Source of the DNA: Gammaproteobacteria bacterium
Lineage (GTDB): Bacteria; Pseudomonadota; Gammaproteobacteria; Pseudomonadales; Azotimanducaceae
Direction: 5' to 3'
NCBI GenBank assembly: GCA_009841615.1
Contig: VXLL01000018.1
Coordinates: 62,001-126,000 of the forward strand
DNA length: 64,000 nt
Shown here: piece by piece, positions 40,834 to 57,924 of the stretch
How positions within the stretch are numbered: the stretch's first letter is position 1
How the letters are laid out: every line of letters begins with the position of its first letter
Position numbers and translations under genes: made by a program
Notes under the pieces: model-generated
The model's input: only the letters and a program-made list of their open reading frames with translations
Database searches by the model: none
What the model was told of the DNA's origin: nothing

Positions 40834-42741
40834 TCAGTCAGAACTTGATCTTAGTACTTTGATGGTACTGCCTTGCTCTTCGTCGAGCAGGTAAGACTTA
40901 AGATGTTCTATTTGCTCTTCCGACAACTTCTGTTGCCACTTGTGCGCACCGATGAGCGTTGAAGCTGCACGGGCTTGCGCTTCTTTAGACGGCAGAAGGT
41001 CGATGTGTGCATACGTTTGTGTTGCGTCATGTTTAGCCCAGAGTCCCGCTAGCACGTGATAGTAATCAGCATGCTCCGAAATCGGTAATTGTTTGCCAAA
41101 CTCTATCGATTGATCCGGGTCTTTATCTCTGTAGAACAAAACAGCACCAATGGACGCATAGCCTAGAACACGAGCTTGACCTTCACGCATCTTAGGTAGC
41201 AGATCTTTAGCCTTATCGAAATCGATTGATGCGAGCTTGCTCAAAATTACTCCCTCAAGATCTATGTTAGACTCTTCATCTGGTTGCTTCAACGCAATTT
41301 CAATCAACGCTTCTGCGTTGTTCGCAGTCACTACGCTTTCAATGTCAAAAAACATTTTGTCATGTATATGCGCGACTGTCGGGTCGCTGAGCAACCACTC
41401 GAACGCTGCCAAAGCATCAAATTCTGCCCAAGCGCGAAAAAGATTTCTGGCGACGTTAGAAATTCGGTTAGGAGGATTCCGTGCATACTGTGGAAGCTCG
41501 TCTTCGAGTGCTTGGTATTGTGTGATCTTGGAAAGGTGCTTGGCTGTTTCAATAGGATCACGAGTGCACAAACTGAACAAGGCAGTGTAGACAATCACAC
41601 CTCTTATGGATTCGGGGAGTGTTTCAAAAATTTTTAGGGCTCGTAGTGGATTTCTGTCCGCCAAGTAGAGTGCTGTGGTTTCGAACAAGTCCTCGCGTAG
41701 CGCTTCATCTTCCAATTGAGAAAGGGAATCAAATGTTGCAGGTGCATCCTGATTAAACCATCGTTCGGCGATGTCAAAGACGATTAAACGATTTGTGTCG
41801 TCTAACAACGACACAGCTTCGTTGAAAGTGGATTCATAACCATCATTTCGAGCACGGTAACGGAGCACTTCAAGTAGGACTTCGTTTCGAATCCGTCTAT
41901 CTAACATTTCTTTGTGCAGTGTCCTAAATTCATCAAACCCTTCGTTCTCGATCACCGCAAGTGCTACAAATACTAAGTCTCCGATCTGATCAAGATCACT
42001 TGACTCATCACTTAGTAAAAGATTCCAATGTTCCACAGGCTTCTCCAACATCGCAGCTTTTCGAGCTCTTTCTTCTAGTGTGCTGAAGTAGAACTCTAGA
42101 TCGAACCGCTTCGCAATATCCTGTTTAACTTCATCCGAGAGAGTATGCCCAGAATCCAAAACCGAGTGTAAGATCATTATTTTCTCGCCTGATTCAAATT
42201 CCTGCAGATTTCGTTCTGCATACGCCACAACCGAATTGATGTCCGTAGAAGACCATTCTTGAAAGACGACAGACTGATACAGTTCGCGCTGAACTCGTAG
42301 AAAGTCGTGAGTGTGAGCGAGTGCCAGCTCTGGTTCAAGTGAGGCAAGTCTTCGAAATATCTCCACCTGCGTCGATTGTCTAAGCGTGATGTCGGAGAGT
42401 TGCTTCGATTCTTCGAGTAGATTCAAAGCTTGTTGAAAGTTTGCTTCGTTCAGCAACTTCCCAAACTCAACAGATCTTGAGAAGTAGGACGGTAACTTAC
42501 CCAAGTCTTCAATGCTTTGGATCGTCTGTTCGGAACTAGCGTCGTCAGGTTTCGCGTTGTCAACTGGCGAAACTGTACTATTGATCGCAGAGTAGTCAGG
42601 AGTCGATGTCGTTTCAGAGTTTGAATCCTTCTTTTCAGTGATCAACCATAAGGCGATCAGACCCGTGCCGCCAAGGATGGTAACCAGTAAAACTCCAGCG
42701 ATGAAGGGAGACTTTCGAATCTTGGTGTTAAAGGTATACAT
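40834..42741 (-). CDS. membrane-anchored helical-repeat protein, paralogue C
   Basis: 635 residues from ATG 42741, 10 bp after the stop of paralogue D; a longer frame exists but would run into D. One membrane segment at about residues 12-33 (SPFIAGVLLVTILGG...), a Ser/Thr/Asp-rich linker to about 80, then an alpha-helical solenoid to the end. Repeats carry the W-x3-D-P/x-x2-A core in degenerate form: SLEPELALAHTH, RDPIETAKHL, EFDALAAFEWLLSDP. It ends LSEEQIEHLKSYLLDEE, the C-terminal helix shared by the family. Predicted to be an inner-membrane protein with the solenoid in the periplasm, from the basic residues before the anchor. No named family recognised; TPR- and HEAT-like folds are both possible. 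Confidence 0.8.
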   Translation of the reverse strand: MYTFNTKIRKSPFIAGVLLVTILGGTGLIALWLITEKKDSNSETTSTPDYSAINSTVSPVDNAKPDDASSEQTIQSIEDLGKLPSYFSRSVEFGKLLNEANFQQALNLLEESKQLSDITLRQSTQVEIFRRLASLEPELALAHTHDFLRVQRELYQSVVFQEWSSTDINSVVAYAERNLQEFESGEKIMILHSVLDSGHTLSDEVKQDIAKRFDLEFYFSTLEERARKAAMLEKPVEHWNLLLSDESSDLDQIGDLVFVALAVIENEGFDEFRTLHKEMLDRRIRNEVLLEVLRYRARNDGYESTFNEAVSLLDDTNRLIVFDIAERWFNQDAPATFDSLSQLEDEALREDLFETTALYLADRNPLRALKIFETLPESIRGVIVYTALFSLCTRDPIETAKHLSKITQYQALEDELPQYARNPPNRISNVARNLFRAWAEFDALAAFEWLLSDPTVAHIHDKMFFDIESVVTANNAEALIEIALKQPDEESNIDLEGVILSKLASIDFDKAKDLLPKMREGQARVLGYASIGAVLFYRDKDPDQSIEFGKQLPISEHADYYHVLAGLWAKHDATQTYAHIDLLPSKEAQARAASTLIGAHKWQQKLSEEQIEHLKSYLLDEEQGSTIKVLRSSSD

Positions 42742-42751
42742 AGTGAATTTA

Positions 42752-44578
42752 TTAGTCCGATTCGTCCAAGAGGTAGAGTTCGATTTCTTGAAGTTGTTCA
42801 TCTGAGAAATAGCGGTGAGGTCTATAGTCGTCCCCAACGCTATAGGATAGAATCTCTCGAGCAGCTTTTGACTTCAATTCCTGCGAGGGTAGTTTCTCTA
42901 AGGATTCGTACATCCCTACGATGTCCGAGTAACGCCATTGGCTAAAGAAATTGTCGAAGAAGGTAGGTTGCAGGGGTTGTGGAAGCTCTCGACCTAGATT
43001 CAGAGCTCGGAAGGGTTCGTTACGCTTTATAAGAACTCTGGAAACGTCCAAGTAGGAGAATGTTTTGGTATGTGCATGATCTCGCACGTGTGGAAGCATA
43101 GCAATGGCTTGGTCGACATCGACTTGAGCAAGTGTGTGTATCACCGTTCGTTCGAGCCCCAAGGCACCGGGTGAAGGAATCGGTACACCGAGTGCAGTTT
43201 CGAGTGCGCGTTGTGGATCCTCTTGTACTACATCGTACAAGACTCTAGACAACAGGTGTTGTTGCTCCTCTTTCGGTCGCGAAAGAATCCAGTCGAGGGC
43301 ACCACCTGGATCTTGCCGCGACCAACTCCCGATTACACGCCAACTGTGATTGGCGATGCCGTTAGGTATTTCAAGCATTAGCTGGGCTGCTTCATGAGGC
43401 GATTCTCGTGCTAAACTAGACAACACCGATCCATGAACACTATCGTGCGCACTCTCAGGAAAATCAGACAAGTTTTCTAATAGTTCATGGGGATCCAGAG
43501 CAGCCCAAGCGTCAACTATGTACGTCGTAAGTTGATTCCGCAACGCTCCATCGTCAATTGTGCCGACCGCTTGTAATGTTGCTCGAGGATCGGAGACCGA
43601 CCATTTCACAGTGACATCTTCCAAAGCATGCGCTCTGATGTGGTCGCCTAAATTTTTTGCTAGTTCGAAAGTGTTCAGCGGGGCACTCTCCGTAAGAAGA
43701 AACAGTGCTCTGGACAAAATAGAACTCGGGTAATCGATATGTGATATCGAATCTTCAATTTGAGAAACAGCATCGGCCCCGTCGCGCAATACCCAATATT
43801 CCAGGATGTCTCTTAAAGCCTCCCTCTGCTCGGCGTCTCCTCTACTATCCTTGAGTATTGCGTTCCAAGCAGCTTCAGGATCATCCAAAGCACTAGCGAC
43901 GTGCGCCTGTTCCAGCACATCCAACGCGAGAGCTTCTTGCCCAAACTCCCGAGCCAAATCAACGATTTGCTGATCGGACCAATCGACTCTCGATTTTAAG
44001 ATGACCTCCAAGGCAACTCTCTGATCTGAATCGATTATCCCCCTAGCGTGTTCGACAGCTGCTTCGAAATCCAATTGCACCCACTCGCTAAAGATCGCAT
44101 TCACAAGAGGAGCACGACGATTCCAAGCGACTTGGGTAGCGTGAGCCATCGCTTTGACAGGATCTATGATGGCAAGTCTTCGCATAATGTCGCTTTGAGT
44201 AGACAATCTGCGATCGGGATTCGCGATGGACTTAGATTGTTCTAGCAGTTCAAGCACTTTCGATTCGTTCGCTTGCTCCAGCATCGTTAACAGAGCCACA
44301 GATCTCGCAAAATCGCTCTTGAACTCACTTAAACTCGCAATGTCATCGAGGGAACCCGACGAAGGATCGCCAGGTGACGTTGAATTTATTGCGTTGGACA
44401 CAAGTCCATCTACCGTATTTGTGGATGATGTGTCGTCGGCAGCGTTGTTAATGAGTCCTGGTAGGAATACAAAGGCAACTCCAATGATCCCCAGAAAGAC
44501 TGCCGCTACGAGAGCTCCTAGGAAGAAGGAGGAAGTAGTACCACTCTGACGATTAGTGTTTTGAGTATTGTGTTGCAT
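42752..44578 (-). CDS. membrane-anchored helical-repeat protein, paralogue D
   Basis: 608 residues from ATG 44578 with GGAGG nine bases upstream, the only member of the family with a strong ribosome site. Membrane segment at about 18-41 (FFLGALVAAVFLGIIGV...), linker rich in Asn/Thr/Ser/Asp, then repeats: SEWVQLDFEAAVEHARG, VKWSVSDPRATLQAV, DAWAALDPHELLENL, GSWSRQDPGGALDWIL, YDVVQEDPQRALETAL. The recurring unit of 33-37 residues is a pair of helices with Trp and Asp-Pro at the turn. It ends FSDEQLQEIELYLLDESD. First gene of the C/D pair and probably co-transcribed with C. Confidence 0.82.
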   Translation of the reverse strand: MQHNTQNTNRQSGTTSSFFLGALVAAVFLGIIGVAFVFLPGLINNAADDTSSTNTVDGLVSNAINSTSPGDPSSGSLDDIASLSEFKSDFARSVALLTMLEQANESKVLELLEQSKSIANPDRRLSTQSDIMRRLAIIDPVKAMAHATQVAWNRRAPLVNAIFSEWVQLDFEAAVEHARGIIDSDQRVALEVILKSRVDWSDQQIVDLAREFGQEALALDVLEQAHVASALDDPEAAWNAILKDSRGDAEQREALRDILEYWVLRDGADAVSQIEDSISHIDYPSSILSRALFLLTESAPLNTFELAKNLGDHIRAHALEDVTVKWSVSDPRATLQAVGTIDDGALRNQLTTYIVDAWAALDPHELLENLSDFPESAHDSVHGSVLSSLARESPHEAAQLMLEIPNGIANHSWRVIGSWSRQDPGGALDWILSRPKEEQQHLLSRVLYDVVQEDPQRALETALGVPIPSPGALGLERTVIHTLAQVDVDQAIAMLPHVRDHAHTKTFSYLDVSRVLIKRNEPFRALNLGRELPQPLQPTFFDNFFSQWRYSDIVGMYESLEKLPSQELKSKAAREILSYSVGDDYRPHRYFSDEQLQEIELYLLDESD

Positions 44579-45088
44579 CAATTCTAACCTCCATCACAAA
44601 CTGAAATTCGCGTGTGGTTCATCTATTGTACCCGTCTCCGATGAGCTACTGAAGTCTTCTACAAATTTAATCTTTTAATCGACACATCGAAGTGCTGGAA
44701 ATCAAACTACAGTATTTAAAAATTACACTCGCACATAGCGTCGATCACTGACAGTCGGTCAGACACTCATAAATCGAACGAGATCGAGTGGTCCTCTTCA
44801 GTAGCACTGACGAGTTTGTTCGATTAAGTGTTCTCTCGCAGATCAACTATAACGTCATTGGGAGAATTCGTCGTCCTTAAACAGGGCAAAAACTAGCTCG
44901 AAATATCAATGAGTTCTCCTAGTCTCATCTCTTTCACCTCGCCGAGAGATCTTTAAATAGGTTGTTCGGCTTTTCAGAAATATTCGACACAACTCCTATT
45001 TAAGAGTACAATTAACGATTGAATGGATTGAGTCCATGACTTAAGACCCATTCGCGAAATCAAACAAGGATGTTTTGAGGATTACGTT
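44579..45088. other. 510-bp divergent intergenic region between paralogue D and the SPOR lipoprotein
   Basis: Must contain promoters in both directions. No coding frame is credible. A short dyad CTGAC-AGTCG-GTCAG lies at about 44748-44762. AT content rises toward 45000 (TATTTAAGAG), where the SPOR gene promoter is likely, but no good -35/-10 pair can be named. Confidence 0.4.
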
Positions 45089-45811
45089 ATGAAATCATGG
45101 CAATGGATTGCTATCCCTCTTACTGCGCTCACCATCTCTGGCTGTTCTTCATTATTTCAGTCAAACCAATCAAAGGAAACCGTCGTTGACGAACAGTGGG
45201 ACTGTACCGAAGTTGACGAAAATGGTGAATGGGACTGTGAAGAAGTCGAAGAAGGCGTAAGCACTGAAGATCTCGTCGCCGCAGTCGGTGGAAACGATGG
45301 ATCTACTCCTACCCTTTCTCTGGTCGGACCTACACCAACCACGCAGGCTTCTTTACCGCGATCGCGATCAAGTTCCAAACCAGTAGTAACGGCGTTAGCT
45401 CCTCCACCATCACAGGATACGGAGTCTACTGAAAGCGAACAAATCGAAGAAGAAGAAGATCTTCCTGACTACCTATGGCTTGCGTATGAGCCGGAAACAG
45501 AAACGCGCATTCAGGACCTTCCCGATGAATTTTATGTGGTTCAACTAGCGGCTTTCGCTACGAAAGAAAAAGCGATAGAGTATGTTTCTAAGCAAAAGAA
45601 CTTACGCGAACTCAGAGGTGTTCGCGTCCTAGCTAAAGAAAAAGCTCACTTCAATATATTGCTCGGAATCTACGAGAATAAGCGTCGTGCCGAGCGAGCG
45701 GTGAAGAGCGTTGAGGGCGAACTCGGTGGGAAGACTCCTTGGATCAGGTCGATGTCATCTATAAAGACTGCGATGAAAGCAGCCGACGACAAATTCGGGG
45801 AAAAGTACTAA
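45089..45811 (+). CDS. SPOR domain lipoprotein
   Basis: 240 residues, ATG with GAGGA upstream. A lipoprotein signal ends LTISGC with Cys19. Next comes a short internal duplication, QWDCTEV and EWDCEEV separated by DENG, then a long Ser/Pro/Glu-rich linker (about 60-135) and a C-terminal SPOR domain (about 146-225: FYVVQLAAFATKEKAIEYV, then FNILLGIYENKRRAERA). SPOR domains bind denuded septal peptidoglycan, so it is probably an outer-membrane lipoprotein at division sites. The paired WDC motifs put two Cys close together and could form a disulfide. It sits between the two arrays of helical-repeat paralogues. Confidence 0.87.
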   Translation: MKSWQWIAIPLTALTISGCSSLFQSNQSKETVVDEQWDCTEVDENGEWDCEEVEEGVSTEDLVAAVGGNDGSTPTLSLVGPTPTTQASLPRSRSSSKPVVTALAPPPSQDTESTESEQIEEEEDLPDYLWLAYEPETETRIQDLPDEFYVVQLAAFATKEKAIEYVSKQKNLRELRGVRVLAKEKAHFNILLGIYENKRRAERAVKSVEGELGGKTPWIRSMSSIKTAMKAADDKFGEKY

Positions 45812-45831
45812 ACTCGAACTCTAAGAGTGAT

Positions 45832-46311
45832 TTATAGCACGTCGAGAATGCTCTCGGCGTTGCTGACCTCAAATATACCTGGACCCTCAACCGCGAGCTT
45901 GGTTACAGTACCGTCTTCGACAATCATCGCGTAGCGCTCCGAGCGGTTGCCCAGTCCAAATGATGATCCGTCAAGTACTAGGCCAATTGCTTGAGTAAAT
46001 TCGCCATTGCCATCGCTAGCCATAACGATGTCATCGGCGTCCTGCTCGCGTCCCCAAGCGTCCATGACGAAGATGTCGTTAACTGCGACACAGACTATTT
46101 CATCGACACCTTTAGCTTTAATAGCTTCAGCATGAAGTACGAATCCTGGTAAATGCTGTTCGGAACAGGTTGGTGTAAACGCACCTGGAACCGCGAAAAT
46201 TACGACTTTTTTGCCGCTTACGAGATCGTGGACGGATTCTTTAGCTGGCCTGCCGTCCCTCATAACACGCAAAGTAGCATTGGGCAACCGATCACCTTCC
46301 TGAATTGACAT
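45832..46311 (-). CDS. peroxiredoxin, Prx5 family
   Basis: 159 residues, ATG with AGAGGAAATT upstream. The catalytic block VPGAFTPTCSEQHLPGF has the peroxidatic Cys49, with Thr46 and Pro42 of the active site and the conserved Arg in NRSERYAM. It reduces hydroperoxides using glutathione or glutaredoxin in the usual Prx5 scheme. It is convergent with the SPOR gene (20 bp between stops) and divergent from the DMT exporter. Confidence 0.94.
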   Translation of the reverse strand: MSIQEGDRLPNATLRVMRDGRPAKESVHDLVSGKKVVIFAVPGAFTPTCSEQHLPGFVLHAEAIKAKGVDEIVCVAVNDIFVMDAWGREQDADDIVMASDGNGEFTQAIGLVLDGSSFGLGNRSERYAMIVEDGTVTKLAVEGPGIFEVSNAESILDVL

Positions 46312-46412
46312 AATTTCCTCTCCAAGTTCGTACGAATTCTGAACGCGAGATTGTAGGTACTAGTACGCGAATTTGTCGCGATAGATGAAAGTTCAACACC
46401 GTCTAAAGTTCA

Positions 46413-47303
46413 ATGTTCTCAAAGCTACCTCGCAATGACCTGATTGCCATCAGTCTGGCGATTGTGGTCGTTCTGTGTTGGTCGACAGTAGCAACTGGGT
46501 TTAAGTTAGCACTACAACATCTTTCAGTCCCTCAGCTACTGTTCGCTAGCACCTTTGTCTCTTTCGTGTTCCTTTCCGCAGTTGCGTTTTTTACAGGAAT
46601 CAAAAAACCTACATGGAAAACCGTTAGCCTCGGAGCAGTCCTTGGACTGATCAATCCGTTTTCGTATTACTTAGTTCTTTTCGCAGCGTATGACCGATTG
46701 CCCGCACAGATCGCGCAGCCATTAAATTACACTCATGCAATCGTAACCGCTTTACTCGCGATACCCATTCTCAAACAACGACCCACTCCACGAATTTGGT
46801 TGGGATTGATTATTGGATATTTAGGAGTTGTCGTACTGATCACGCAAGGATCGTTCACCGAGTTTTCTTTCGATCGACTTGGGGTTGCATTAGCCTTAGG
46901 AAGTGCTTTAATTTGGGGGGCTTACTGGATTCTCACCGTGCGTTATTCAGAAGATTCTGTGACCCTCTTACTCATTGCGTTTGCCACAGCAACGCCGTGT
47001 GCTGCGATATTCTGTGTTATTTTCGACACACTTCCGGCATTCAATCTTGTAAATTTAGGGTTCGGCTTGTGGCTTGGCGTTGCTGAAATGGGACTCGCTT
47101 TTCTACTCTGGCAACGTGCACTAAAAACTGCTACTCAGGTTAGCTTGATCACCCCGATTGCTTACTTTAGCCCGGCATTGTCGTTATTTTTAATCCACAA
47201 TGTACTTGGCGAAAAGGTACCCCCAATAACAATCTTGGGTCTAGCCACGCTGATGTTAGGAATCTTGATCATGTATCTTCGTTTCGAAAAACGTACTTCC
47301 TAG
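46413..47303 (+). CDS. EamA/DMT superfamily transporter
   Basis: 296 residues, ATG start. Ten membrane segments in two EamA repeats: the first opens AIVVVLCWSTVATGFKLAL and the second GVALALGSALIWGAYWIL. The YFSPALSLFLIHNVLGEK segment is typical for the second repeat. Drug/metabolite exporters of this type move small organic molecules; the substrate is unknown. It stands alone before the A-B module array. Confidence 0.9.
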   Translation: MFSKLPRNDLIAISLAIVVVLCWSTVATGFKLALQHLSVPQLLFASTFVSFVFLSAVAFFTGIKKPTWKTVSLGAVLGLINPFSYYLVLFAAYDRLPAQIAQPLNYTHAIVTALLAIPILKQRPTPRIWLGLIIGYLGVVVLITQGSFTEFSFDRLGVALALGSALIWGAYWILTVRYSEDSVTLLLIAFATATPCAAIFCVIFDTLPAFNLVNLGFGLWLGVAEMGLAFLLWQRALKTATQVSLITPIAYFSPALSLFLIHNVLGEKVPPITILGLATLMLGILIMYLRFEKRTS

Positions 47304-47612
47304 CGTTGAAGGACTGAATCAACAGGCAGTCAACACTTGCTCTCTCTCGAGTGAGCTACTCTTACAACCAAATAATTGCGTATGAGTACTAACGGAATCA
47401 CAGTGTGTTACCATCAACTTGAACATCCAAGATTTGGCATGAGACCATCTCAACTGAAACTTTCTATCCGTCGTTTGCAATGTTTTATACTGCTCTTGTT
47501 CGCTAAGAGAACTTGTCGGCTTCGGGAAGTGCGCAGGAAGCGAGTAGAAGTTCTAGCAAGTAAAGTCCCAATATAATTCTTGCGGTCTTACACATATTCA
47601 GATTGTCTTTCC
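47304..47612. promoter_or_regulatory. upstream region of paralogue A with conserved -10-like element
   Basis: 309 bp. TATAAT at 47572-47577 lies 35 bp before the ATG of A. The 46 bases from 47567 to the ATG align with 52009-52053 before paralogue A' with one gap, including CCCAATATAATT and ATATTCAGA. No clear -35 box is present at the right distance and neither leader has a Shine-Dalgarno sequence. A 66-codon open frame (47376-47576) does not look coding. Confidence 0.5.
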
Positions 47613-49619
47613 ATGCAAAGTTTAGTTTCGCGCGCTCTAATCCTATTGACTGGTTTGGTGATAGGAATCCTTGGAGTAATTGGTGTTCTTGTTTTACTAA
47701 AGGACGATGGTACATCTTCCGAGACTCAAAGTTCTTCTGATTCACAACAGATAGAGCAACAATCAACTAGTGAAACATTAGTAAACAGGAGCTCGATGAG
47801 TCGTGTCACTAACGACTCGGTTCCCTCCAACATCGACGATTTAGTCTTTCCAAAACTTGCTTTCGATCGTAGGGCATCAATCTTGTCTTGGGTCAATGTC
47901 CTTTCAGACGATCAAATCGTGAATTGGCTTGAGCAATCGATTGAACCGTCTTGGGATGTAGCCGAAACACATCGGTACGAGTTGCAATCCGCACTCTTAC
48001 AGAAACTTTCGACAACTGCCCCTGAAAGAGCCTTTGAATTTGCGTGGTCAGGGGACGACGAACTGCATGCAAGTGGAATTTTTGAACTTGCAGCTCTTGA
48101 TCTTACATATTTCGGGAGTCGTTGGGACGAAATATCACCCGAAGGCATGGCTTCCATTGTGCTTTTGTCTTGGGCTAGTTCAGATCTAGAGGGTGCGATC
48201 GCCCACATCAAGGAAATGGACCTGGGTGTGGGTGCTTACTATTTGCCGATTATCCTACAAGCAAGCGAAGACTTAGACTTAAATCGCCAACGTGAAATCG
48301 CTAAAGAACTTGGAGATGAGAGCTATGCATTTTTCCATTACTTTCAGAATCTCACTCGAGGGGCAGTAGAGAACCCGAAGGAAACCTGGTACGAGATTAT
48401 CAACCTAGCCGATAGCGAGGGCATGCAACAGACTACAGGAGATGCGCTAAGTCGTGTCGCGGTTGCATGGGTCAAGAAAGAAGGAAAGACCGTTTTTGAC
48501 GAAATAGTGTCTTCAATTTCACAGGACAATAAATACGCCCCTGCTCTCTCTGATATATTCGGAGCCTTATCTACCGATGAACCTGCAGAAATTTTTGATT
48601 ACTTATTGGAGAAACTTGGTAGTGAAGCTTACGATGTTATTCAAAGAAGCGATATTGTGAACAACTGGGCACGTGACGATCCACGCGGGCTTTTGTTAAA
48701 GGCGGAGACGTTGCCAGCGAGTAGATTTCGGCGAACTTTGGTCTCCAATGCAGTTTACCGATGGGCTGCTAACAACCCACGACAGGTTCTTGATAGTTTA
48801 GAACTGATACCTCAGCAGCATCGAGAGTACGCGAGTGATAATGCAATTTGGACTCTTACAAGAAAATCACCGCCAGACGCAGCTAAATACGTGCTACAAG
48901 TCGAGGACTACGAATCTCAACTAGAACTTGCTACAACCTTAGTTCGCCAATGGTCGTACCAAGATTCCAGCGCAGCGAAAGATTGGGTGTTTAACATTCC
49001 AGAAAGTAATGTTCTACGCTCTGCATTAATTCGTCCGTTAGCAAACACACTCGTTAATACAGACCCTAGAGCAGCTTTTCAATTGGCACTTGAGCAGCCG
49101 ATCAACGAGCAAGGATCTTCCTCTGCTCCTGCTAGAGGGTTTGAGTCTTCTATCTTAAGCCGGATTGCATCCCGAGACTTAGATCTTGCCTTAGAGTTAT
49201 TACCCCAAGTGCGAGACGTTGGTTCGAGCAGAGTACAAGTGTACACCGATATCGGTACCTCGCTGATTGAGAACGGTGAAACGCAACAAGCCCTAAGCCT
49301 CGCCAGTCATTTATCGGAAGAGCAGCAAGTGCCATTCTATCAAGGAGTCACTTCGATGTGGGCCGTACAAGATCCAAAGGGATTTCTCAATGCATTCGAT
49401 GAATTTCCAAATGAGGAAATTAAGTCATCAGTGGCGCTTTCCGTGAAGTTTGTTAATGACCTGACGAATACCCTCTCAGCTGAAGAGATTGAGAGCATAG
49501 AAGAGTACATCAGCAAAGAAGACAAAGAGAAACTTGAACAGGTTGAAAACATTGATCTGTTCAACCCTTCCAAAGAAGAACAAGAATTGCTCGAAGAGTT
49601 ATTCCCAGGTCAGTGGTAG
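47613..49619 (+). CDS. membrane-anchored helical-repeat protein, paralogue A
   Basis: 668 residues from ATG 47613, chosen because paralogue A' starts at the same place and the leader aligns up to it. Membrane segment at 9-30 (ILLTGLVIGILGVIGVLVLL), Ser/Gln/Glu-rich linker to about 75, then repeats: LSWASSDLEGAIAHI, NNWARDDPRGLLLKA, YRWAANNPRQVLDSL, RQWSYQDSSAAKDWVF, NTLVNTDPRAAFQLAL, SRIASRDLDLALELL and SMWAVQDPKGFLNAF. Relative to A' it has about 28 extra residues near 150-180. The C-terminal helix LSAEEIESIEEYISKED is followed by a 30-residue acidic tail (KEEQELLEELF). No Shine-Dalgarno. Function unknown. Confidence 0.83.
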   Translation: MQSLVSRALILLTGLVIGILGVIGVLVLLKDDGTSSETQSSSDSQQIEQQSTSETLVNRSSMSRVTNDSVPSNIDDLVFPKLAFDRRASILSWVNVLSDDQIVNWLEQSIEPSWDVAETHRYELQSALLQKLSTTAPERAFEFAWSGDDELHASGIFELAALDLTYFGSRWDEISPEGMASIVLLSWASSDLEGAIAHIKEMDLGVGAYYLPIILQASEDLDLNRQREIAKELGDESYAFFHYFQNLTRGAVENPKETWYEIINLADSEGMQQTTGDALSRVAVAWVKKEGKTVFDEIVSSISQDNKYAPALSDIFGALSTDEPAEIFDYLLEKLGSEAYDVIQRSDIVNNWARDDPRGLLLKAETLPASRFRRTLVSNAVYRWAANNPRQVLDSLELIPQQHREYASDNAIWTLTRKSPPDAAKYVLQVEDYESQLELATTLVRQWSYQDSSAAKDWVFNIPESNVLRSALIRPLANTLVNTDPRAAFQLALEQPINEQGSSSAPARGFESSILSRIASRDLDLALELLPQVRDVGSSRVQVYTDIGTSLIENGETQQALSLASHLSEEQQVPFYQGVTSMWAVQDPKGFLNAFDEFPNEEIKSSVALSVKFVNDLTNTLSAEEIESIEEYISKEDKEKLEQVENIDLFNPSKEEQELLEELFPGQW

Positions 49620-49729
49620 ATCGTTTCAAGCACAGCCGACATTACAACTTTTGAGAGAGTGCGAAGATAATCTGTGAGATCACCGATATCTAAAGGGCGT
49701 ACCACTTCAACAAACAGTCAACATCCTTT

Positions 49730-51526
49730 ATGAAACAGAATCCGATGAAAAGAGCCATTGCAATCTCCCTAATTCTTCTATCCTCAGGCATTGTCGTAGG
49801 GGGCGGAGGTACGTACTTAATACATCTGTCGATTTCAGGTAAAGACGCTTCAAATTTGTCTCTCACCGAAGTAGAAAGGACATCAACAGGAGGCTCTCCC
49901 ACTGTAAACAACGCTAATGATGATGCACAAGAACAGATGTTTCCTAGTGACAGTCAATCGTCTCATGTGTTAACTGATCCCTCGTTACAAAATAACACAT
50001 TTCGGAGTAAATTAGAGGTCTATACCTACGTTTCAGGCTTATCTGAGCAACAAGTTTTTGACGAACTACAACGTTCTGTGAATCTTTCGAATGAAGTTTC
50101 TCGTCGAGTTCTTGGAGAATTGCAGATTGCTCTCTTGGAACGACTAGTATTTTTCAATCCGGTAGCGGCTAAGGAATTTGCCTTAGTACAGGATAATTTG
50201 GATTCAAAATTACTGGCCTTGGACTCGTGGAGTTCGTTACAGAATTCCTCTCCTTCGACAGATTCCGAAATAGATGTTATGCCCTTGATACAAGGTGTAT
50301 TTAAAGAGTGGGCACTCAGCGATCTAGACGCTGCCATTGACAATGCTAAGTCCCTCAAAGAAGACGCTGGGACTAACGCACTTGCTGGAATTCTTGCTTC
50401 GCTTTCCGGAGATTCTTTGGCAACGTATCGCACAATTGCCAAGCAATTGGGTCATGAAAAACAGGGATTAGACTCATATGTTATGTCGTATCGTTCAATG
50501 AAAGTTGACGATCCCAAAGACATTTGGGAAGACATGATAAATCTAGTTGATCCTGATAATTTTGAACAGCGACAAGTCTTGACAAACATCGCCGTTCAGT
50601 GGTACGAACAAGATGGGATCGGTGTAATCGAAGAGATTAATGCTGGTTCACTGGACTCGAGCATAAAGTCAGCCGCGGTCGATGCAGTTCTGAGTGCTGC
50701 GGTGAGGGTAAATCCTGAAGAAGCATTTCGGTACGCTCAGACAATTCCAAGCGACGGATACTATTCCGGACCTCTGCGTGAAGTCATTCGATCATGGGCG
50801 TCCACTGACCCACAAGCTGCCTATGATGCAGCCACAAGTATCGATGAAAGCGGACAGCGCGAATATCTTCAGGGGACTGTAGTCACGGTCTGGGCATCGA
50901 ACGACCCCTATTATGTTTTAGAAAATTCAGACGGCTTTCCAATACAAATCAGAGACGAGGGAATAGCGAACGCGATTGAAAAAATCGCTCAATCCTCACC
51001 GCAAGAAGCTGCTGAACTAGCATTGGAACAAGGGGATGGGTTTATGGGTGCATTAAATTTTATGCTCCCTACTTCAGTGATGCCAAATTGGGTCAGACAG
51101 GACGTGGAAGGCGCAGAAGATTGGGTCTTTAACGGACCTGTCAGTGAGGAGAAACGAGACAATTGGGTTCGTGCGTTCGTTAGTAATTTGGTTGAATCAG
51201 ATCCCCGCCGCGCCTTTGAGCTAGCTTTAGAACAACCAAAAGCTGAGGGTGGATTTGCGGCGTGGCTACCGCCGTTGGAAGTACAAGTCTTTGATCGTAT
51301 TGTTTATACCGATCTAGATCTTGCGATCGAACTGCTACCGAAAATTCCCGAGGGTGAGTCACGTTCTGGCGCATATTCCTCTGTTGGAGATCAATACTTA
51401 AACCAAGGCAACTCCGATAAAGCTATGAACCTTGGATTACAATTGCCTGAAGACGAGCAAGCAAATTACTTTCAGAGCATCGCATATACATGGTCTAGTG
51501 TAGATCCAGCTGGAATCCTAGACTAA
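49730..51526 (+). CDS. membrane-anchored helical-repeat protein, paralogue B (truncated by nonsense codon)
   Basis: 598 residues from ATG 49730; an ATG five codons later fits B' better. Membrane segment near 10-31 with the GGGGTY motif that is shared only with B'. Linker rich in Ser/Asp/Thr, then repeats: KEWALSDLDAAIDNA, RSWASTDPQAAYDAA, TVWASNDPYYVLENS, KIAQSSPQEAAELAL, PNWVRQDVEGAEDWVF, SNLVESDPRRAFELAL, DRIVYTDLDLAIELL. The frame stops at TAA 51524-51526, where B' has TCA (Ser); the next 42 codons are intact and homologous to the B' C-terminus. The product therefore lacks the family's terminal helix. The protein may still be made; B has no Shine-Dalgarno. Confidence 0.8.
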   Translation: MKQNPMKRAIAISLILLSSGIVVGGGGTYLIHLSISGKDASNLSLTEVERTSTGGSPTVNNANDDAQEQMFPSDSQSSHVLTDPSLQNNTFRSKLEVYTYVSGLSEQQVFDELQRSVNLSNEVSRRVLGELQIALLERLVFFNPVAAKEFALVQDNLDSKLLALDSWSSLQNSSPSTDSEIDVMPLIQGVFKEWALSDLDAAIDNAKSLKEDAGTNALAGILASLSGDSLATYRTIAKQLGHEKQGLDSYVMSYRSMKVDDPKDIWEDMINLVDPDNFEQRQVLTNIAVQWYEQDGIGVIEEINAGSLDSSIKSAAVDAVLSAAVRVNPEEAFRYAQTIPSDGYYSGPLREVIRSWASTDPQAAYDAATSIDESGQREYLQGTVVTVWASNDPYYVLENSDGFPIQIRDEGIANAIEKIAQSSPQEAAELALEQGDGFMGALNFMLPTSVMPNWVRQDVEGAEDWVFNGPVSEEKRDNWVRAFVSNLVESDPRRAFELALEQPKAEGGFAAWLPPLEVQVFDRIVYTDLDLAIELLPKIPEGESRSGAYSSVGDQYLNQGNSDKAMNLGLQLPEDEQANYFQSIAYTWSSVDPAGILD

Positions 51527-51655
51527 ATAAAAAGTAAACCTACCCCTGAATTGCGTGCAAGCTTGGCTCAAGAGTTGTCGAGTGGTTGGATGAAAGACAA
51601 TTTCACCGATGCCCAACTTGAAGCGCTAAAGCAACATCTCAATGATTCGGAATGA
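51527..51655 (+). pseudogene. detached C-terminal codons of paralogue B
   Basis: Same frame as B after its TAA: IKSKPTPELRASLAQEL, then a short variable stretch, then FTDAQLEALKQHLNDSE and TGA at 51653-51655. B' ends IKDLPTPELRSSLAKHL ... FTDAQLEELKQYIVDSD. Conservation without any other damage suggests the nonsense change is recent, or that the stop is read through. Confidence 0.85.
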
Positions 51656-52053
51656 AAGCTTGTTTGCAATGTGTTGGAGACTGAGACAATCTAGCGTTAG
51701 TCTTTAAGACAGTATCCACTACTCGTGAGTGCTAATCGGGAGAGATTTACGAACCACGAAGAGTGCCTGCTGTATCGGAACATCGGTCTACGGTAGCGTT
51801 GTTTGAGCGCACTAAGCAAAGGAGCATCGTTCTAAAGCCAATCGCAAATTAACCGTCCAACAAACCAAGGCAATGTCAGGACAGTTCGTTCGCCATTCAA
51901 TCTGACCCTACTTCATCTTAGTGTATTTACACGTTTGCGGTGGCTACGAAAAGTTGTTATCCTCAGGTGACATATTAAACTCGAGCACACAACATAGCTC
52001 ATATTTGACCCAATATAATTTTTTCGTCTTAAAAATATTCAGAATGTAGTTCC
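51656..52053. promoter_or_regulatory. intergenic region before paralogue A' with conserved -10-like element
   Basis: 398 bp with no credible gene. TATAAT at 52014-52019 and the following leader match those of paralogue A (47567-47612). A TTGACC at 52005-52010 is too close to serve as -35 for that box. The rest shows no structure I can support. Confidence 0.45.
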
Positions 52054-53964
52054 ATGCAGAATCTCTTTTCACGCTCGCTAATTCTCTTGGCCGGTTTGTT
52101 AATTGGAATCCTCGGTGTCACCGGAGTTCTTGTTTTACTTCCAGAGAATGGGACATCCTCTGATTCGCAGCAACTAGAGAATCAAACACGAAATAATGAC
52201 GAAGGAAACGTTGGATCGATAAGTCAGGTTAGTAGCGACTCAGTCCCCACCGACCTCAACGATTTGATCTTTCCTAAACAGGCCTTCGATCAGAAGATGT
52301 CAATATTGTCTTGGGTCCAAGCACTCTCAGAAGATCAAATCTTGGATTGGCTCCAGCAATCCATTGAACCATCTTGGAACGTGTCCGATTCGAATCGGAC
52401 CGAGCTGCAGTCTGCACTCCTACAGAAACTGTCGATGACCGCGCCGAAGAGAGCTTTTGAATTTACGTGGTCTGACGACGACCAGTCACGTTATAGTATG
52501 GCTTATATCGTGCTTCGGACTTGGGCTAATGTCGATCTTGAAGGTGCGATCGCTCATGTCAACGAACTGGGTTTAGAGGAGTATTCTTACCTTCCGTATA
52601 CGATATTAGAAGCGCGCGACGACTTGAACTTTGATCAACTACGCGATATCGCAAGGGAACTTGGAGACGAAAGCTACGCATTTGCTAATCACTTTCAGAA
52701 TCTCGCCGAAGGGCAAATTGAAGACCCCAAGCAAGTCTGGTACGAAATAATTAACCTAGCAAACCGTGAGGGTATGCAAGAAGCAACTGAATATGCCCTG
52801 AGCCGAGTCGCGGTTGCATGGGTCGAGAAAGAAGGAAGGCAAATATTTGACGAAATAGTGTCTTCAATATCGTCTGATTCCAAGTATGATTACGCGCTGT
52901 CACAAATATTTGGAGAGTTAGCAGAAGACGAGCCCGAAGAAATTTTTGAATACATGTTGACGAATCTTGGTGACAACGCCCTCGAAATTATTCAACAGAG
53001 TAGAGTCGCTTACAAATGGGCAAGCAGAGATCCTCGGGGGTTGTTGTCGAAGATAGAGATGGTGCCGGCGAGTAGAGTTCGGCGAAACATGATCTCCAAT
53101 GCGGTTTACCAATGGTCAGCTAACAACCCGCAACAGCTTCTAAATAATTTAGAGCTCGTGCCACAAGAACAACGAGAAAACGCTAGTCGTAGTGCAATTC
53201 GAACGCTTGCACGCACTTCGCCTTCCGAAGCTGCTAAGTACGTTTTACAAGTATCGGATTATTCGACGCAGGTCTCCATTGCAAATACACTAGTCCGAGA
53301 GTGGTCGTACAAAGATGCCGAAGCTGCTGAAGACTGGGTATATAGCATATCCGATAATGAACGGTTGCGCTCTGCACTAATTCGCCCTCTTGTACGAGCA
53401 CTCGTTGGCACGGACCCTAGAAAAGCGTTTCAACTCGCTCTCGAACAACCCATCAGTGAGCAGACAGATACTCCAAATACATCTCTGGCCTTCGAGGCTT
53501 CAATTCTGAGTTCCATTGCGTATAACGATTTAGACCTTGCCATTGAGTTGTTACCCCAAGTGAGAGACAGCGGTCACAGTAAGGTAAACGCATACTCATC
53601 GATCGGATCCTTCTTAATTGAAAATGGCGAAACGCAAAAAGCAATGAACCTTGCGAGTCAATTGTCAGTAGAACAGCAAACACAGTACTATGAACGGTTA
53701 GCTTCCAGCTGGATTTTGCAGGACCCTAAGGGTTTGTTGACGACAATTGAAGATTTTCCCACAAACGAGATCAAATCCAGAATTGCTGTTTCGATCAACC
53801 TTATCAACCGCATGATGCAAACCTATTCTGCTGATGAACTTGCAAGCGTGGACAAGTACATTTCCGAAGAAGATCGTAAAAAACTTGAAGCGGTCAAAGA
53901 CATAGACTTAATGAACCCATCGGAAGAAGAACTAGAATTGCTCGAAGAGCTGTTTCCTTATTAG
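52054..53964 (+). CDS. membrane-anchored helical-repeat protein, paralogue A'
   Basis: 636 residues, ATG start, no Shine-Dalgarno. Membrane segment at 9-30 (ILLAGLLIGILGVTGVLVLL), linker to about 70, then repeats: RTWANVDLEGAIAHV, YKWASRDPRGLLSKI, YQWSANNPQQLLNNL, RTLARTSPSEAAKYVL, REWSYKDAEAAEDWVY, RALVGTDPRKAFQLAL, SSIAYNDLDLAIELL, SSWILQDPKGLLTTI. It ends YSADELASVDKYISEED plus an acidic tail (EEELELLEELFPY) very like that of A. Intact and full length; probably an inner-membrane protein with a periplasmic solenoid. Function unknown. Confidence 0.83.
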   Translation: MQNLFSRSLILLAGLLIGILGVTGVLVLLPENGTSSDSQQLENQTRNNDEGNVGSISQVSSDSVPTDLNDLIFPKQAFDQKMSILSWVQALSEDQILDWLQQSIEPSWNVSDSNRTELQSALLQKLSMTAPKRAFEFTWSDDDQSRYSMAYIVLRTWANVDLEGAIAHVNELGLEEYSYLPYTILEARDDLNFDQLRDIARELGDESYAFANHFQNLAEGQIEDPKQVWYEIINLANREGMQEATEYALSRVAVAWVEKEGRQIFDEIVSSISSDSKYDYALSQIFGELAEDEPEEIFEYMLTNLGDNALEIIQQSRVAYKWASRDPRGLLSKIEMVPASRVRRNMISNAVYQWSANNPQQLLNNLELVPQEQRENASRSAIRTLARTSPSEAAKYVLQVSDYSTQVSIANTLVREWSYKDAEAAEDWVYSISDNERLRSALIRPLVRALVGTDPRKAFQLALEQPISEQTDTPNTSLAFEASILSSIAYNDLDLAIELLPQVRDSGHSKVNAYSSIGSFLIENGETQKAMNLASQLSVEQQTQYYERLASSWILQDPKGLLTTIEDFPTNEIKSRIAVSINLINRMMQTYSADELASVDKYISEEDRKKLEAVKDIDLMNPSEEELELLEELFPY

Positions 53965-54088
53965 CTTGTTGCACAGAGTTCCGCAAATATGTCCTTGAAA
54001 TGAGAATATTGCTAACCCTCTTGCTCCTTAATCGCGACCATGCACGAGCTCTAGAAAAAGTCGCTAAACCGTTACGAGTTAGTCTCCC

Positions 54089-55993
54089 ATGAAAAAAACT
54101 GTCGTAATCCCTTTGACTCTTCTAATTTCCGGAATTTTGTTAGGGGGCGGCGGTACGTATTTCGTACATCTCCTAACTTCGACTAATGGTGGTTCAGATC
54201 CATCTCAAAGTGTCCCTGCGCCACGAACAGAAGGAGCATCCTCTTCTGTGGATACCGAGATCGATGACGTGCAAGACACAAGGTCGGTCAACACCACTGA
54301 TTCATCGAGCACTTTGGAAGATCCTTCTTTACACAAGATCGCGTTTCAGCGTAAACTCGCTGTCTATTCCTATGTTGCTGGCTTATCTGAGGCACAAATT
54401 ACAAAGGAGCTAGAAAGTGCATTCGATTCCGAAAGTACGCTTTCTCCTCGCGTCCTCATGGAAATGCAAAGTGCTCTCATGGAGAGACTAGCGATATTAA
54501 ATCCTGTCGCAGCTTTGGAATTTTCCGTGGAAAGCAACGATGATGGTACAGACTTTGTCATACAAAATCTATTAGAGAGTCCACCGTATTCTCCTATAAC
54601 GTCCGATAGTGAGTTCATGCCTTTTGTTCAAAGCACATTCAGAGAGTGGGCACTGAGGGACGTTGATGATGCTGTCGAAAATGCTAAGTCTCTTAACGAG
54701 GATGCTAGATTGAACGCGCTTGCAGGAATTCTTACTACGATGTCCGGCGAGTCGTTGACTAGACTTCGCGATATCGCGAAAACATTGGGAGACGAAGATC
54801 AAGGAATAGAGGCTTATGTGACGTCATTTCGCACCGCGACCGTCACCGACCCTAAAAATTTGTGGACCGAAATTTTGCGTCTCATTGAACCCGACCATCG
54901 CTACAAGATGCAGATTTTGGAAAATATTGCCGAGCAGTGGTACGAAAAAGACGGCATCCGTGTTCTCGATCAGATAAATAATACCCCTTTGGAAGAATAC
55001 CAAAAACGCAACATTTTGAGCGGAGTGCTTCGTTTAGCTGCGACCAACAACCCTCACGAGGCGTTTCAATATGCTCAATCCCTTCCGACAGAGAGAGGAT
55101 ATTCATCGTCTTTGAACACTGTCGTGGACATTTGGGCTGAATCAGATCCTCAAGCCGCTTATCAAACAGTCACGAGAGTTGAACAGAGTAGGGACCGTGA
55201 ACGACTTCAAGCGCAAGTGATTTACACATGGGCTTCTAATGAACCCTACTATTTTCTGGAAAACATTGATCAGTTCCCATCTCATGCGAGAGAAACAGGA
55301 ATTGAGAGCGCGATTGGAGCTATTGCACAATCATCACCTCAGGAAGCAGCGGAACTTGCACTAGAACAAAAAGACGAAGGATTCATGAGTACTTTGAGTT
55401 TTATGCTCCCAAATGCGGTAATACGACCCTGGGTGGACCAAGATGTTGAGGCTGCTGTAAATTGGGTACTAAGCGGACCTGTACCAGAAGATAAACGAAG
55501 CATGTGGGTTCGAGTATTAGTGACCAACTTAGTAGACTCGGATCCTCGCCGAGCCTTTGAGATAGCTTTAAAACAACCAAAGGCCGAGGGAGGATTGGAG
55601 GCATTTCTACCGGCACTAGAAGCGGAAGTTTTAGACCAAATAGTTTTTAGCGATCTAGATCTTGCTGTTGAATTATTAGCGAAGCTACCGGAAGGCGATT
55701 CGCGCTCCGAGGCATATGCCTCCGTAGGGAACGAATATATTGATAACGGTGACTCCGAAAGAGCAGTAAACCTCGGATTGCAGCTACCTTCTGAGGAGCA
55801 AGCAGACTACTTTGAAGGTCTTTCATTTACTTGGGCAAGAATAGATCCAGGAGGATTGGTTGAATCAATTAAGGATTTACCTACCCCTGAATTGCGTTCG
55901 AGCTTAGCGAAACACTTGTCGAATCGTAGATCAAATTATTTCACTGACGCCCAACTCGAAGAATTAAAGCAATATATCGTCGACTCAGACTGA
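54089..55993 (+). CDS. membrane-anchored helical-repeat protein, paralogue B'
   Basis: 634 residues, ATG start, no Shine-Dalgarno. Membrane segment near 5-27 with GGGGTYFVHLL, Ser/Thr/Asp-rich linker to about 75, then about eight repeats of 33-37 residues: REWALRDVDDAVENA, DIWAESDPQAAYQTV, YTWASNEPYYFLENI, GAIAQSSPQEAAELAL, RPWVDQDVEAAVNWVL, TNLVDSDPRRAFEIAL, DQIVFSDLDLAVELL, FTWARIDPGGLVESI. It ends with FTDAQLEELKQYIVDSD, the complete terminal helix. It is the intact version of B and the clearest template for the repeat. No enzymatic motif is visible; a scaffold or binding role would suit a solenoid, by inference only. Confidence 0.83.
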   Translation: MKKTVVIPLTLLISGILLGGGGTYFVHLLTSTNGGSDPSQSVPAPRTEGASSSVDTEIDDVQDTRSVNTTDSSSTLEDPSLHKIAFQRKLAVYSYVAGLSEAQITKELESAFDSESTLSPRVLMEMQSALMERLAILNPVAALEFSVESNDDGTDFVIQNLLESPPYSPITSDSEFMPFVQSTFREWALRDVDDAVENAKSLNEDARLNALAGILTTMSGESLTRLRDIAKTLGDEDQGIEAYVTSFRTATVTDPKNLWTEILRLIEPDHRYKMQILENIAEQWYEKDGIRVLDQINNTPLEEYQKRNILSGVLRLAATNNPHEAFQYAQSLPTERGYSSSLNTVVDIWAESDPQAAYQTVTRVEQSRDRERLQAQVIYTWASNEPYYFLENIDQFPSHARETGIESAIGAIAQSSPQEAAELALEQKDEGFMSTLSFMLPNAVIRPWVDQDVEAAVNWVLSGPVPEDKRSMWVRVLVTNLVDSDPRRAFEIALKQPKAEGGLEAFLPALEAEVLDQIVFSDLDLAVELLAKLPEGDSRSEAYASVGNEYIDNGDSERAVNLGLQLPSEEQADYFEGLSFTWARIDPGGLVESIKDLPTPELRSSLAKHLSNRRSNYFTDAQLEELKQYIVDSD

Positions 55994-56580: not shown

Positions 56581-57924
56581 CTACTTGTGCCGCAAACGTA
56601 CCGGTAATTTTGTAATGCCGTGAAGGAAACTTGACCATTGAAACTCCGGGGGTCCGACTACTTCCACACGTTTGAAGCGCTGCAATATCTCTTCCCACAA
56701 TATCTGTAGTTGCATCTCCGCCAATCGATAACCGACACAACGATGAATACCGTAGCCGAATCCTAGGTGGGTTCGAATATTCTCTCGATCAATCCTGAAC
56801 CGGTCAGGTTGTGGGAACACCTCTTCATCTCGATTCGCCGATACATACCACAACGCAAGCCTATCTCCTTTCTTCATTTTTTTACCTCGAAACTCTGTGT
56901 CTTCAGTTGCGGTTCGAGCCATGTGCGCGATCGCGGATTGCATACGAATCATTTCCAAAACAGCTGAGGGTACTAAATCTGGATTTCGAGTTAGACGTTC
57001 AAACTCATCTGGGTACTCATCAAAAAACTTAACTCCACCAGAGATAGAGTTGCGCGTAGTTTCGTTACCACCGACTATAAGCAGTAATAAGTTTCCTAAA
57101 AGTTCGTTTGGAGGCATTTCTTTCGTCGAGTCGCTTTGTGCTAACATGGAAATCAAGTCGTGCCCTGGCGTTGTGCTCGCTTTGCGTTTTTCAAAGATGT
57201 TGGAAAAATATTCAAAGCATTGCCATAGTTCTTTGAACGCTTCTTCTACGGACGTAAACAACTCTGGATTCGCGTTATTTGTTGCCGCATCGGACCAACG
57301 TATCAATAGCATTCGATCTTCTTGTGGAACATCAAATAGTATCGCCAACATTTGACTAGTAAGCTCAATCGAAACTTCCGTTACCCAATCGAACTCCTCA
57401 TCAATCGGCAACTGTTCCAAAATCGCTTGTGCGCGTTCGCGAATAATCGGTTCAAGCGGTTTCAATGAACGTTGACCAAACATAGGTTGAACTGCTTTAC
57501 GTTGAGCTGTGTGTTTCGGCGGGTCCATCATAATGAACATTGGAAGATTGAACCGCGGGTCTACCCCCTCTTCATCGTAGGGCTTTCCAGCCAGTTGAAT
57601 CCCACCGTAGCGTTGTTCTGAGGAAAATACTTTAAAGTTCCTTTCGATGTCCATGATGTCCTGATGCTTCGTTATAGACCAATATGGACCGAACATGCTG
57701 TCTTCGGTACGATGTACCGGATCTTCCTTTCGTAACCGAGCGAAGTACTCAAACATCGACTGGTGTTGAAACAAGCTTGGATGTTCAGGAGACAACTCAG
57801 CTAAAGGAATTTGATCCACATCGCGATGTGGATCTACTGCGTACTTCGCTTGAACCTCTTTATTCAGAAGCGCGAAGCGCTCCGCTGTCGTCAGTTCAGA
57901 AACATCAACTTTTTCAGTATTCAT
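56581..57924 (-). CDS. cytochrome P450, CYP153-type alkane hydroxylase
   Basis: 447 residues, ATG start, soluble bacterial class I layout. I-helix GGNETTRNS at 285-293, ExxR as Glu324-Arg327, heme loop FGYGIHRCVG with Cys396 as the thiolate ligand. The blocks MFGPYWSITKHQDIM, LPMFIMMDPPKH, EEFDWVTEVSIELT, LIVGGNETTRNS and LWYVSANRDEE follow CYP153A proteins closely; these hydroxylate the terminal carbon of medium-chain alkanes and fatty acids. Class I P450s need a ferredoxin and ferredoxin reductase, commonly adjacent in CYP153 operons, but neither is encoded here. Family assignment is from recalled sequence patterns; the subfamily number is not assigned. Confidence 0.88.
   Translation of the reverse strand: MNTEKVDVSELTTAERFALLNKEVQAKYAVDPHRDVDQIPLAELSPEHPSLFQHQSMFEYFARLRKEDPVHRTEDSMFGPYWSITKHQDIMDIERNFKVFSSEQRYGGIQLAGKPYDEEGVDPRFNLPMFIMMDPPKHTAQRKAVQPMFGQRSLKPLEPIIRERAQAILEQLPIDEEFDWVTEVSIELTSQMLAILFDVPQEDRMLLIRWSDAATNNANPELFTSVEEAFKELWQCFEYFSNIFEKRKASTTPGHDLISMLAQSDSTKEMPPNELLGNLLLLIVGGNETTRNSISGGVKFFDEYPDEFERLTRNPDLVPSAVLEMIRMQSAIAHMARTATEDTEFRGKKMKKGDRLALWYVSANRDEEVFPQPDRFRIDRENIRTHLGFGYGIHRCVGYRLAEMQLQILWEEILQRFKRVEVVGPPEFQWSSFLHGITKLPVRLRHK

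Follow-up and report, generated by a model that had tools for sequence, protein, structure and literature searches.

A candidate repertoire of paired, membrane-anchored alpha-solenoid proteins predicted for the periplasm of a gammaproteobacterial lineage

Two-gene envelope modules that have been multiplied many times, with the partners kept, include PE/PPE of mycobacteria and SusC/SusD of Bacteroidota. A 64,000-nucleotide stretch of a gammaproteobacterial genome (contig VXLL01000018.1, positions 62,001 to 126,000; hereafter the window) carries six genes, named C, D, A, B, A' and B', that encode anchored helical-repeat proteins belonging to a large, mostly paired family. Here both partners are homologous solenoids, which sets them apart from PE/PPE and SusC/SusD, and we know of no relation of the solenoid family to either. 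Many repeat-protein copies per bacterial genome are also a feature of the eukaryotic-like repeat proteins of sponge symbionts, and sponge-associated metagenome-assembled genomes (MAGs) show an enrichment of such repeats, including TPR and HEAT (PMC8163846). In the part of that report used here, the fractions quoted do not exceed 2% of coding genes and are based on repeat families already known, whereas the present family is without a model, takes up 7.7% of the DNA, and is anchored and mostly paired. The fold is of a known kind, a helical repeat solenoid, while the family, its anchoring, its pairing and its scale are new, and none of the published titles and abstract openings listed in literature searches describes such a paired solenoid repertoire. 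As judged from the sequences and structure models, the family is read with moderate confidence as a lineage-specific repertoire of inner-membrane-anchored periplasmic alpha-solenoids that are mainly organised as two-protein modules.

The genome that holds the window (G000; 2,657,221 bases in 38 contigs, 92.3% complete and 0.3% contaminated) gave 128 matched stretches with B' as query, and iterative searching of the contig stretches bearing these hits identified 114 family open reading frames (ORFs), 109 of them of at least 450 amino acids (aa) and five shorter. Measured from stop to stop, the 109 members account for 203,529 bases, about one thirteenth of the genome, which is an unusual share of 2.66 Mb for one nameless protein family. 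A preliminary description of the window, made from its sequence alone, had recognised the six genes as paralogues, which they are, but had missed this scale. In 108 of the 109 members the N-terminus contains a hydrophobic 19-mer that scores more than 1.6 by Kyte-Doolittle; the last member reaches 1.58, and a second, later hydrophobic segment is found in three. Most N-termini resemble uncleaved anchors (by eye), net charge is higher before the anchor than after it in 105 of 109 (a positive-inside bias), and 69 of the 109 anchors contain GxxxG, as compared with 29.9 in shuffled anchors (standard deviation 4.3, maximum 43 in 1,000 rounds). Beyond the anchor, cysteine makes up 39 of 58,788 residues (0.066%), and 76 of the 109 members have none past ORF residue 80; five window enzymes taken for comparison contain 0.45-2.6%. 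Taken together, the anchor, the charge bias and the scarcity of cysteine point to a solenoid that sits in the periplasm.

With the five fragments included, the family ORFs of G000 form 40 same-strand runs, namely 19 of two genes, five of four, two of three, one each of 5, 10, 12 and 13, and 10 single genes. Two clades alternate without exception along the 10-gene array, and in the 13-gene array the types alternate and are followed by one extra B at the end. The 42 adjacent co-oriented pairs include 84 of the 109 genes. Four subfamilies (A-B, Y-X, C-D and E-F) consist of 32 pairs and one unpaired gene, and in each the upstream and downstream types form separate clades (support for the X clade, 0.85). 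Their pairs are spread over contigs C1, C3, C10, C16, C17, C21, C27 and C31 with the order from upstream type to downstream type kept. The partner trees mirror each other in A-B (13 pairs, r=0.957, 0 of 20,000 permutations), Y-X (10 pairs, r=0.937, 2 of 20,000), C-D (5 pairs, r=0.985, 1 of 120) and E-F (4 pairs, r=0.838, 1 of 24). Adjacent partners with a mirrored phylogeny are therefore found for 32 pairs in four subfamilies. By eye, the downstream protein of all four E-F pairs has a signal-peptide-like N-terminus that leads directly into the acidic stretch, and the partner keeps an ordinary anchor in three of the four, an arrangement that would suit a soluble protein tethered by its anchored partner.

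Pairs also appear as units between genomes. Genome G302 has 97 matched stretches, pieces included, and the set used for comparison comprised its 58 family members of at least 450 aa. Reciprocal best matches in this set were obtained for 49 of the 109 G000 members, and the arrays of the two genomes are syntenic; both members of 16 of the 42 listed pairs were matched, and 15 of these 16 are adjacent in G302. Synonymous divergence (dS) of the family orthologues ranges from 0.04 to 1.96, with three saturated, a wider spread than in the flanking genes (0.10-1.02 where defined). Between loci L048 and L049, a block of 88-97% identity spans A' and B' together, A-B is 70-85% identical and the genes just upstream are 77-91% identical; as judged by this alignment, A'-B' is apparently exchanged or kept as a unit. 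The synonymous spread and the shared A'-B' block suggest exchange or long retention of pair alleles.

In the mechanism proposed for such modules, the GxxxG-rich anchor helices would bring an upstream-type and a downstream-type protein together, and the two solenoids would form one periplasmic binding platform. Each pair would then recognise its own partner, for which secreted proteins, components of the wall or membrane, and compounds that come from the environment or a host are candidates, and the repertoire would have grown in part of the genus as many partners must be told apart. We infer a heteromer formed via anchor and solenoid, with an own partner for each pair, because the genome can and does amplify one type alone, yet in the four subfamilies 32 pairs stand against a single unpaired gene. 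A bolder form of this proposal is tentative and rather doubtful: a combinatorial periplasmic recognition system of ~40 heterodimeric solenoid receptors, each with its own ligand, that are swapped between species as pair cassettes and sort secreted proteins or molecules derived from a host or community. A large diversified recognition repertoire would reside in the periplasm, provided that the pairs are heterodimers that bind separate ligands.

Several observations weigh against organisation in two-protein modules. Not all of the ten remaining listed pairs combine two distinct types, and C17:181532, A-type by its place, lies outside both the A and B clades. A clade of 15 members was amplified as one type, with 11 full-length genes in one tandem run. 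Across contigs, none of the neighbouring genes accompanies the pairs repeatedly, and the bases just past B' in the L048-L049 comparison are 74-79% identical, followed by a flank at 88.6%. The exported SPOR lipoprotein of the window contains 1.25% cysteine (3 of 240 residues) and so is not cysteine-poor, and GxxxG is also found in anchors that do not dimerise. The rates of partners are correlated (rho 0.91, n=16), but neighbours across pair boundaries equal this (rho 0.94, n=6); rate agreement thus reflects the array and not the pair, and pair-specific rate covariation was rejected. Tandem duplication alone can copy pairs. Hence, pairing might be a by-product of array duplication, with each protein acting alone or as a homomer in a general periplasmic scaffold or spacer. 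The single-type clade, the similar rates of array neighbours whether partners or not, and the fold and architecture common to A' and B', as homomers would have, all fit this explanation. It is nevertheless considered unlikely, given that four subfamilies stay paired in a genome where single-type tandem amplification occurs, that their pairs lie on eight contigs in constant upstream-downstream order, and that the mirror trees are strong.

The six window genes at 40834-55993 had been presented as two arrays; they are better described as the gene pairs C-D, A-B and A'-B'. Their positions in the window are listed below, with per-residue confidence (pLDDT) and predicted template modelling score (pTM) for the two proteins modelled with AlphaFold.

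40834..42741, minus strand: D, anchored solenoid, downstream partner of the C-D pair (ATG at 42741)
42752..44578, minus strand: C, anchored solenoid, upstream partner of the C-D pair (ATG at 44578)
47613..49619, plus strand: A, anchored solenoid, upstream type (ATG at 47613)
49745..51526, plus strand: B, anchored solenoid, downstream type, shortened by an in-frame TAA at 51524-51526
51527..51655, plus strand: 42 codons and a stop after the premature stop of B, in the same frame, containing the closing helix
52054..53964, plus strand: A', anchored solenoid, upstream type (pLDDT 84.7, pTM 0.67)
52063..52134, plus strand: N-terminal helix of A', predicted membrane anchor (residues 4-27; from hydrophobicity and model)
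52282..53952, plus strand: helical solenoid of A' (residues 77-633; from model)
54089..55993, plus strand: B', anchored solenoid, downstream type (pLDDT 82.5, pTM 0.69)
54104..54181, plus strand: N-terminal helix of B', predicted membrane anchor with GxxxG spacing (residues 6-31; from model)
54293..55969, plus strand: helical solenoid of B', ~15 hairpins (residues 69-627; from model)

In the ORF list, D begins at a TTG (42837), as compared with the ATG chosen at 42741. The counterpart of B in the corresponding position of L050 lacks the in-frame TAA and forms an open frame of 653 codons. As the preliminary description held, the six long ORFs share one architecture: they can be aligned over their full length, with 24-51% identity to B' and 44 invariant columns, and each has a single N-terminal hydrophobic segment and a low-complexity linker in which Ser, Asp and Glu are frequent. 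Likewise, no catalytic motif was noticed in the six proteins. The W-x3-D-P-x2-A core assigned to their repeats occurs far above chance but marks only some repeats, the strict form being present 0-1 times and W-x3-D-x3-A 2-3 times per protein (shuffled means 0.04-0.11). The closing motif as originally written matches none of the six. A looser form, [FYL][ST]x2[EQ][LI]x2[LIV]x2[YH][LI], is found in the last 90 residues of five of the six and of 26 of the 109 genome members (shuffled mean 0.0); B is without it because of the in-frame TAA, the motif lying in the 42 codons that follow.

Both AlphaFold models are all-helical and form a superhelix of antiparallel helical hairpins, in agreement with the repeat solenoid foreseen from the sequence. 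They were built from alignments of 60 (B') and 43 (A') sequences, and pLDDT is at least 90 for 411 of 634 residues in B' and 377 of 636 in A', the anchor and linker being mostly of low confidence. The count of eight repeats given earlier does not hold, for B' has ~15 hairpins and A' about as many. Among 213 sequences from three genomes, W459 of B' is kept in all, and the first helix of the hairpin is more variable than the second in 11 of the 12 hairpins examined (Wilcoxon p 0.001). As to function, the best guess is still the one first made, a scaffold or binding surface.

None of the six window proteins has an above-cut-off match in Pfam or NCBIfam, consistent with the earlier failure to recognise a named family; these six tested members therefore escape profile libraries on which repeat-protein surveys rely. 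Weak TPR_19 matches, as judged by E-value, were obtained for 9 of 60 members (best E 1.6e-4), and designed PPR proteins are matched locally in a profile comparison (E 6e-5). Foldseek searches of the PDB with A' and B' returned only generic solenoids, importins, CAND1, SF3B1 and PPR10 included, with a best template modelling (TM) score of 0.34 among the 50 matches listed for each, and no global structural relative at TM ~0.5 or more is among them. The likeness to TPR/PPR/HEAT proteins (TPR_19, HEAT_2) is thus that of an all-alpha hairpin solenoid, whereas the six proteins fall below every repeat-family cut-off, TM is at most 0.34 among the matches listed, and the repeat consensus, in which W lies close to the end of helix A, D-P marks the turn and helix B carries Ala, is the family's own. 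Verrucomicrobiota presumably have many W-A-x2-D-P-x-A proteins. The best A' match by E-value (6e-5) is PDB 9hmf chain K, by its title a periplasmic scaffold of the Campylobacter flagellar motor, and at TM 0.16 on an alpha-carbon trace the resemblance is general only. No match to a characterised family over the full solenoid was found by any of these comparisons. A phage or defence origin was also rejected, since the six proteins have no match to PADLOC anti-phage defence profiles at E<=1, the best E in PHROGs is 0.022, none of 51 candidate stretches matched IMG/VR, and nothing was found in the BFVD viral fold library at E<=0.001.

The family is present in 16 of 18 genomes of the genus. Two have no match (G006, 97% complete; G012, 77%), six have 1-7, and ten have at least 39 matched stretches, values that are lower bounds in five of these; G302 and G007, searched singly, gave 97 and 83, pieces included. 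Copy number within the genus therefore ranges from 0 to more than 100, which makes a link to lifestyle or host testable by comparison alone. At family level, 60 of 200 genomes and 18 of 37 genera were matched, and one other genus attains 20 matched stretches in a genome. Matches were obtained in 8 of 293 genomes at order level (E<=0.001; its own and two of the same genus included) and in 4 of 369 at class level (its own included). Sister genera hold low-copy relatives of the same architecture, and of 23 related ORFs found beyond the genus, 21 begin with a hydrophobic segment near the N-terminus and 20 lack cysteine after it. The twelve named relative loci are MAG contigs titled OMG group, Pseudomonadales or Gammaproteobacteria bacterium, and their bin names lead us to assume a sponge and coral origin.

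This presumed sampling, together with an extreme expansion that is confined to part of the genus, would fit eukaryotic-like repeat proteins acting on an animal host and released after cleavage, comparable to the ankyrin, TPR and LRR proteins of sponge symbionts, and the enrichment reported in sponge-associated MAGs (PMC8163846, in the part used here) is in line with it. Such a role is quite improbable, as most N-termini look uncleaved and positive inside, pointing to the periplasm, no secretion-system part is among ten neighbour proteins on C1 and C21 checked by Pfam, and other genera have low-copy relatives with the same architecture.

The preliminary description had proposed local multiplication under diversifying selection on the repeats. 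The ratio of nonsynonymous to synonymous divergence (dN/dS) between family members and their G302 orthologues has a median of 0.235 and a range of 0.16-0.53 (46 of 49 with defined dS); for neighbour genes the median is 0.13 (38 comparisons, 24 with defined dS). Eleven comparisons in this baseline share one G302 subject; in ten of these dS is undefined and identity low, which suggests paralogy rather than orthology. By region, dN/dS is 0.56 for the anchor, 0.54 for the linker, 0.27 for helix A and 0.23 for helix B (40 orthologue pairs at a tree distance of at most 0.8), so that the fastest parts are the anchor and linker and not the solenoid. Diversifying selection is thus unsupported at gene and region level, and the genes evolve under constraint. 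Nor does the multiplication look recent. Best paralogue identity is 25-69% (median 45%), with none at 70% or above, and the family for this reason looks like an old retained repertoire. Among the best 15 of 24 DNA matches there is no long near-identical tract, and the sole 100% match, of 119 bases, arises where the reading frames of C and D overlap. Recent local amplification and gene conversion were accordingly rejected, with the proviso that an assembler could collapse very recent copies. An assembly artefact is unlikely, as separate genomes hold syntenic arrays. As a separate observation, the solenoid pair at C27:33457-37208 (L032) is 93-96% identical to that on C22 of G302 (L070), and some other orthologous pairs are 42-62% identical.

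Neutral or selfish amplification with unselected diversity could account for the shortened genes and fragments (B, the five G000 ORFs below 450 aa, and the pieces in G302 and G007) and for the wide range of copy number in one genus. It was already disfavoured and is very improbable in view of the dN/dS values of the orthologues, the retention of old paralogues at no more than 69% identity, and the synteny of the G000 and G302 arrays.

The preliminary description had left open whether the interleaved SPOR lipoprotein and peroxiredoxin genes belong with the solenoids. Both are conserved neighbours in G302 (90% and 94% identity, respectively), as is the EamA gene of the window within the same 90-94% range, but the 234 non-family ORFs in the array stretches retrieved include no relative of any of the three. 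The SPOR and peroxiredoxin genes were thus rejected as parts of the system, for they do not recur beside other arrays.

Other neighbours bear on the possibility that the solenoids serve secreted proteins and periplasmic enzymes as adaptors or in quality control as scaffolds, with one client or protease per pair. Among nine sister-genus loci (eight neighbour proteins checked), two, from two genomes, have directly upstream of a solenoid gene or pair an M16 (insulinase) peptidase gene whose product has, by eye, a signal-peptide-like N-terminus:

L112:5511-8279, M16 peptidase upstream of solenoid gene or pair
L119:948-3821, M16 peptidase upstream of solenoid gene or pair

A second expanded family has 12 members, which are secreted-looking and 553-842 aa long; the three tested contain an AhpC-TSA/thioredoxin domain, and one of them also DUF547. 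Eleven of the 12 lie among solenoid genes in the first 150 kb of C1 (L009-L015), and the twelfth is on C25 (L028). Examples are:

L009:15265-17145, AhpC-TSA-like family
L010:6582-8240, AhpC-TSA-like family
L010:14731-17256, AhpC-TSA-like family

These neighbours would suit an adaptor role, which is improbable all the same, because the peptidase is seen in two of nine loci, the AhpC-TSA-like family has a single member outside C1, and, as noted above, nothing recurs with the pairs across contigs.

Further genes were noted near solenoid genes. Four tandem paralogues of ~306 aa adjoin a solenoid pair at C17:67-3812 (L023). Near the single-type solenoid array on C1, L013:14847-17651 encodes a protein of 935 aa with five bPH_2 (bacterial PH) matches. 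Two related lipoprotein-like proteins are encoded by solenoid genes' neighbours at L013:18549-19514 and C1:130867-131808, the first with a weak, sub-threshold HEAT_2 match. In the window itself, 56581-57924 encodes a cytochrome P450, for which the best NCBIfam match is SolI of solanimycin biosynthesis (421 bits, cut-off 850).

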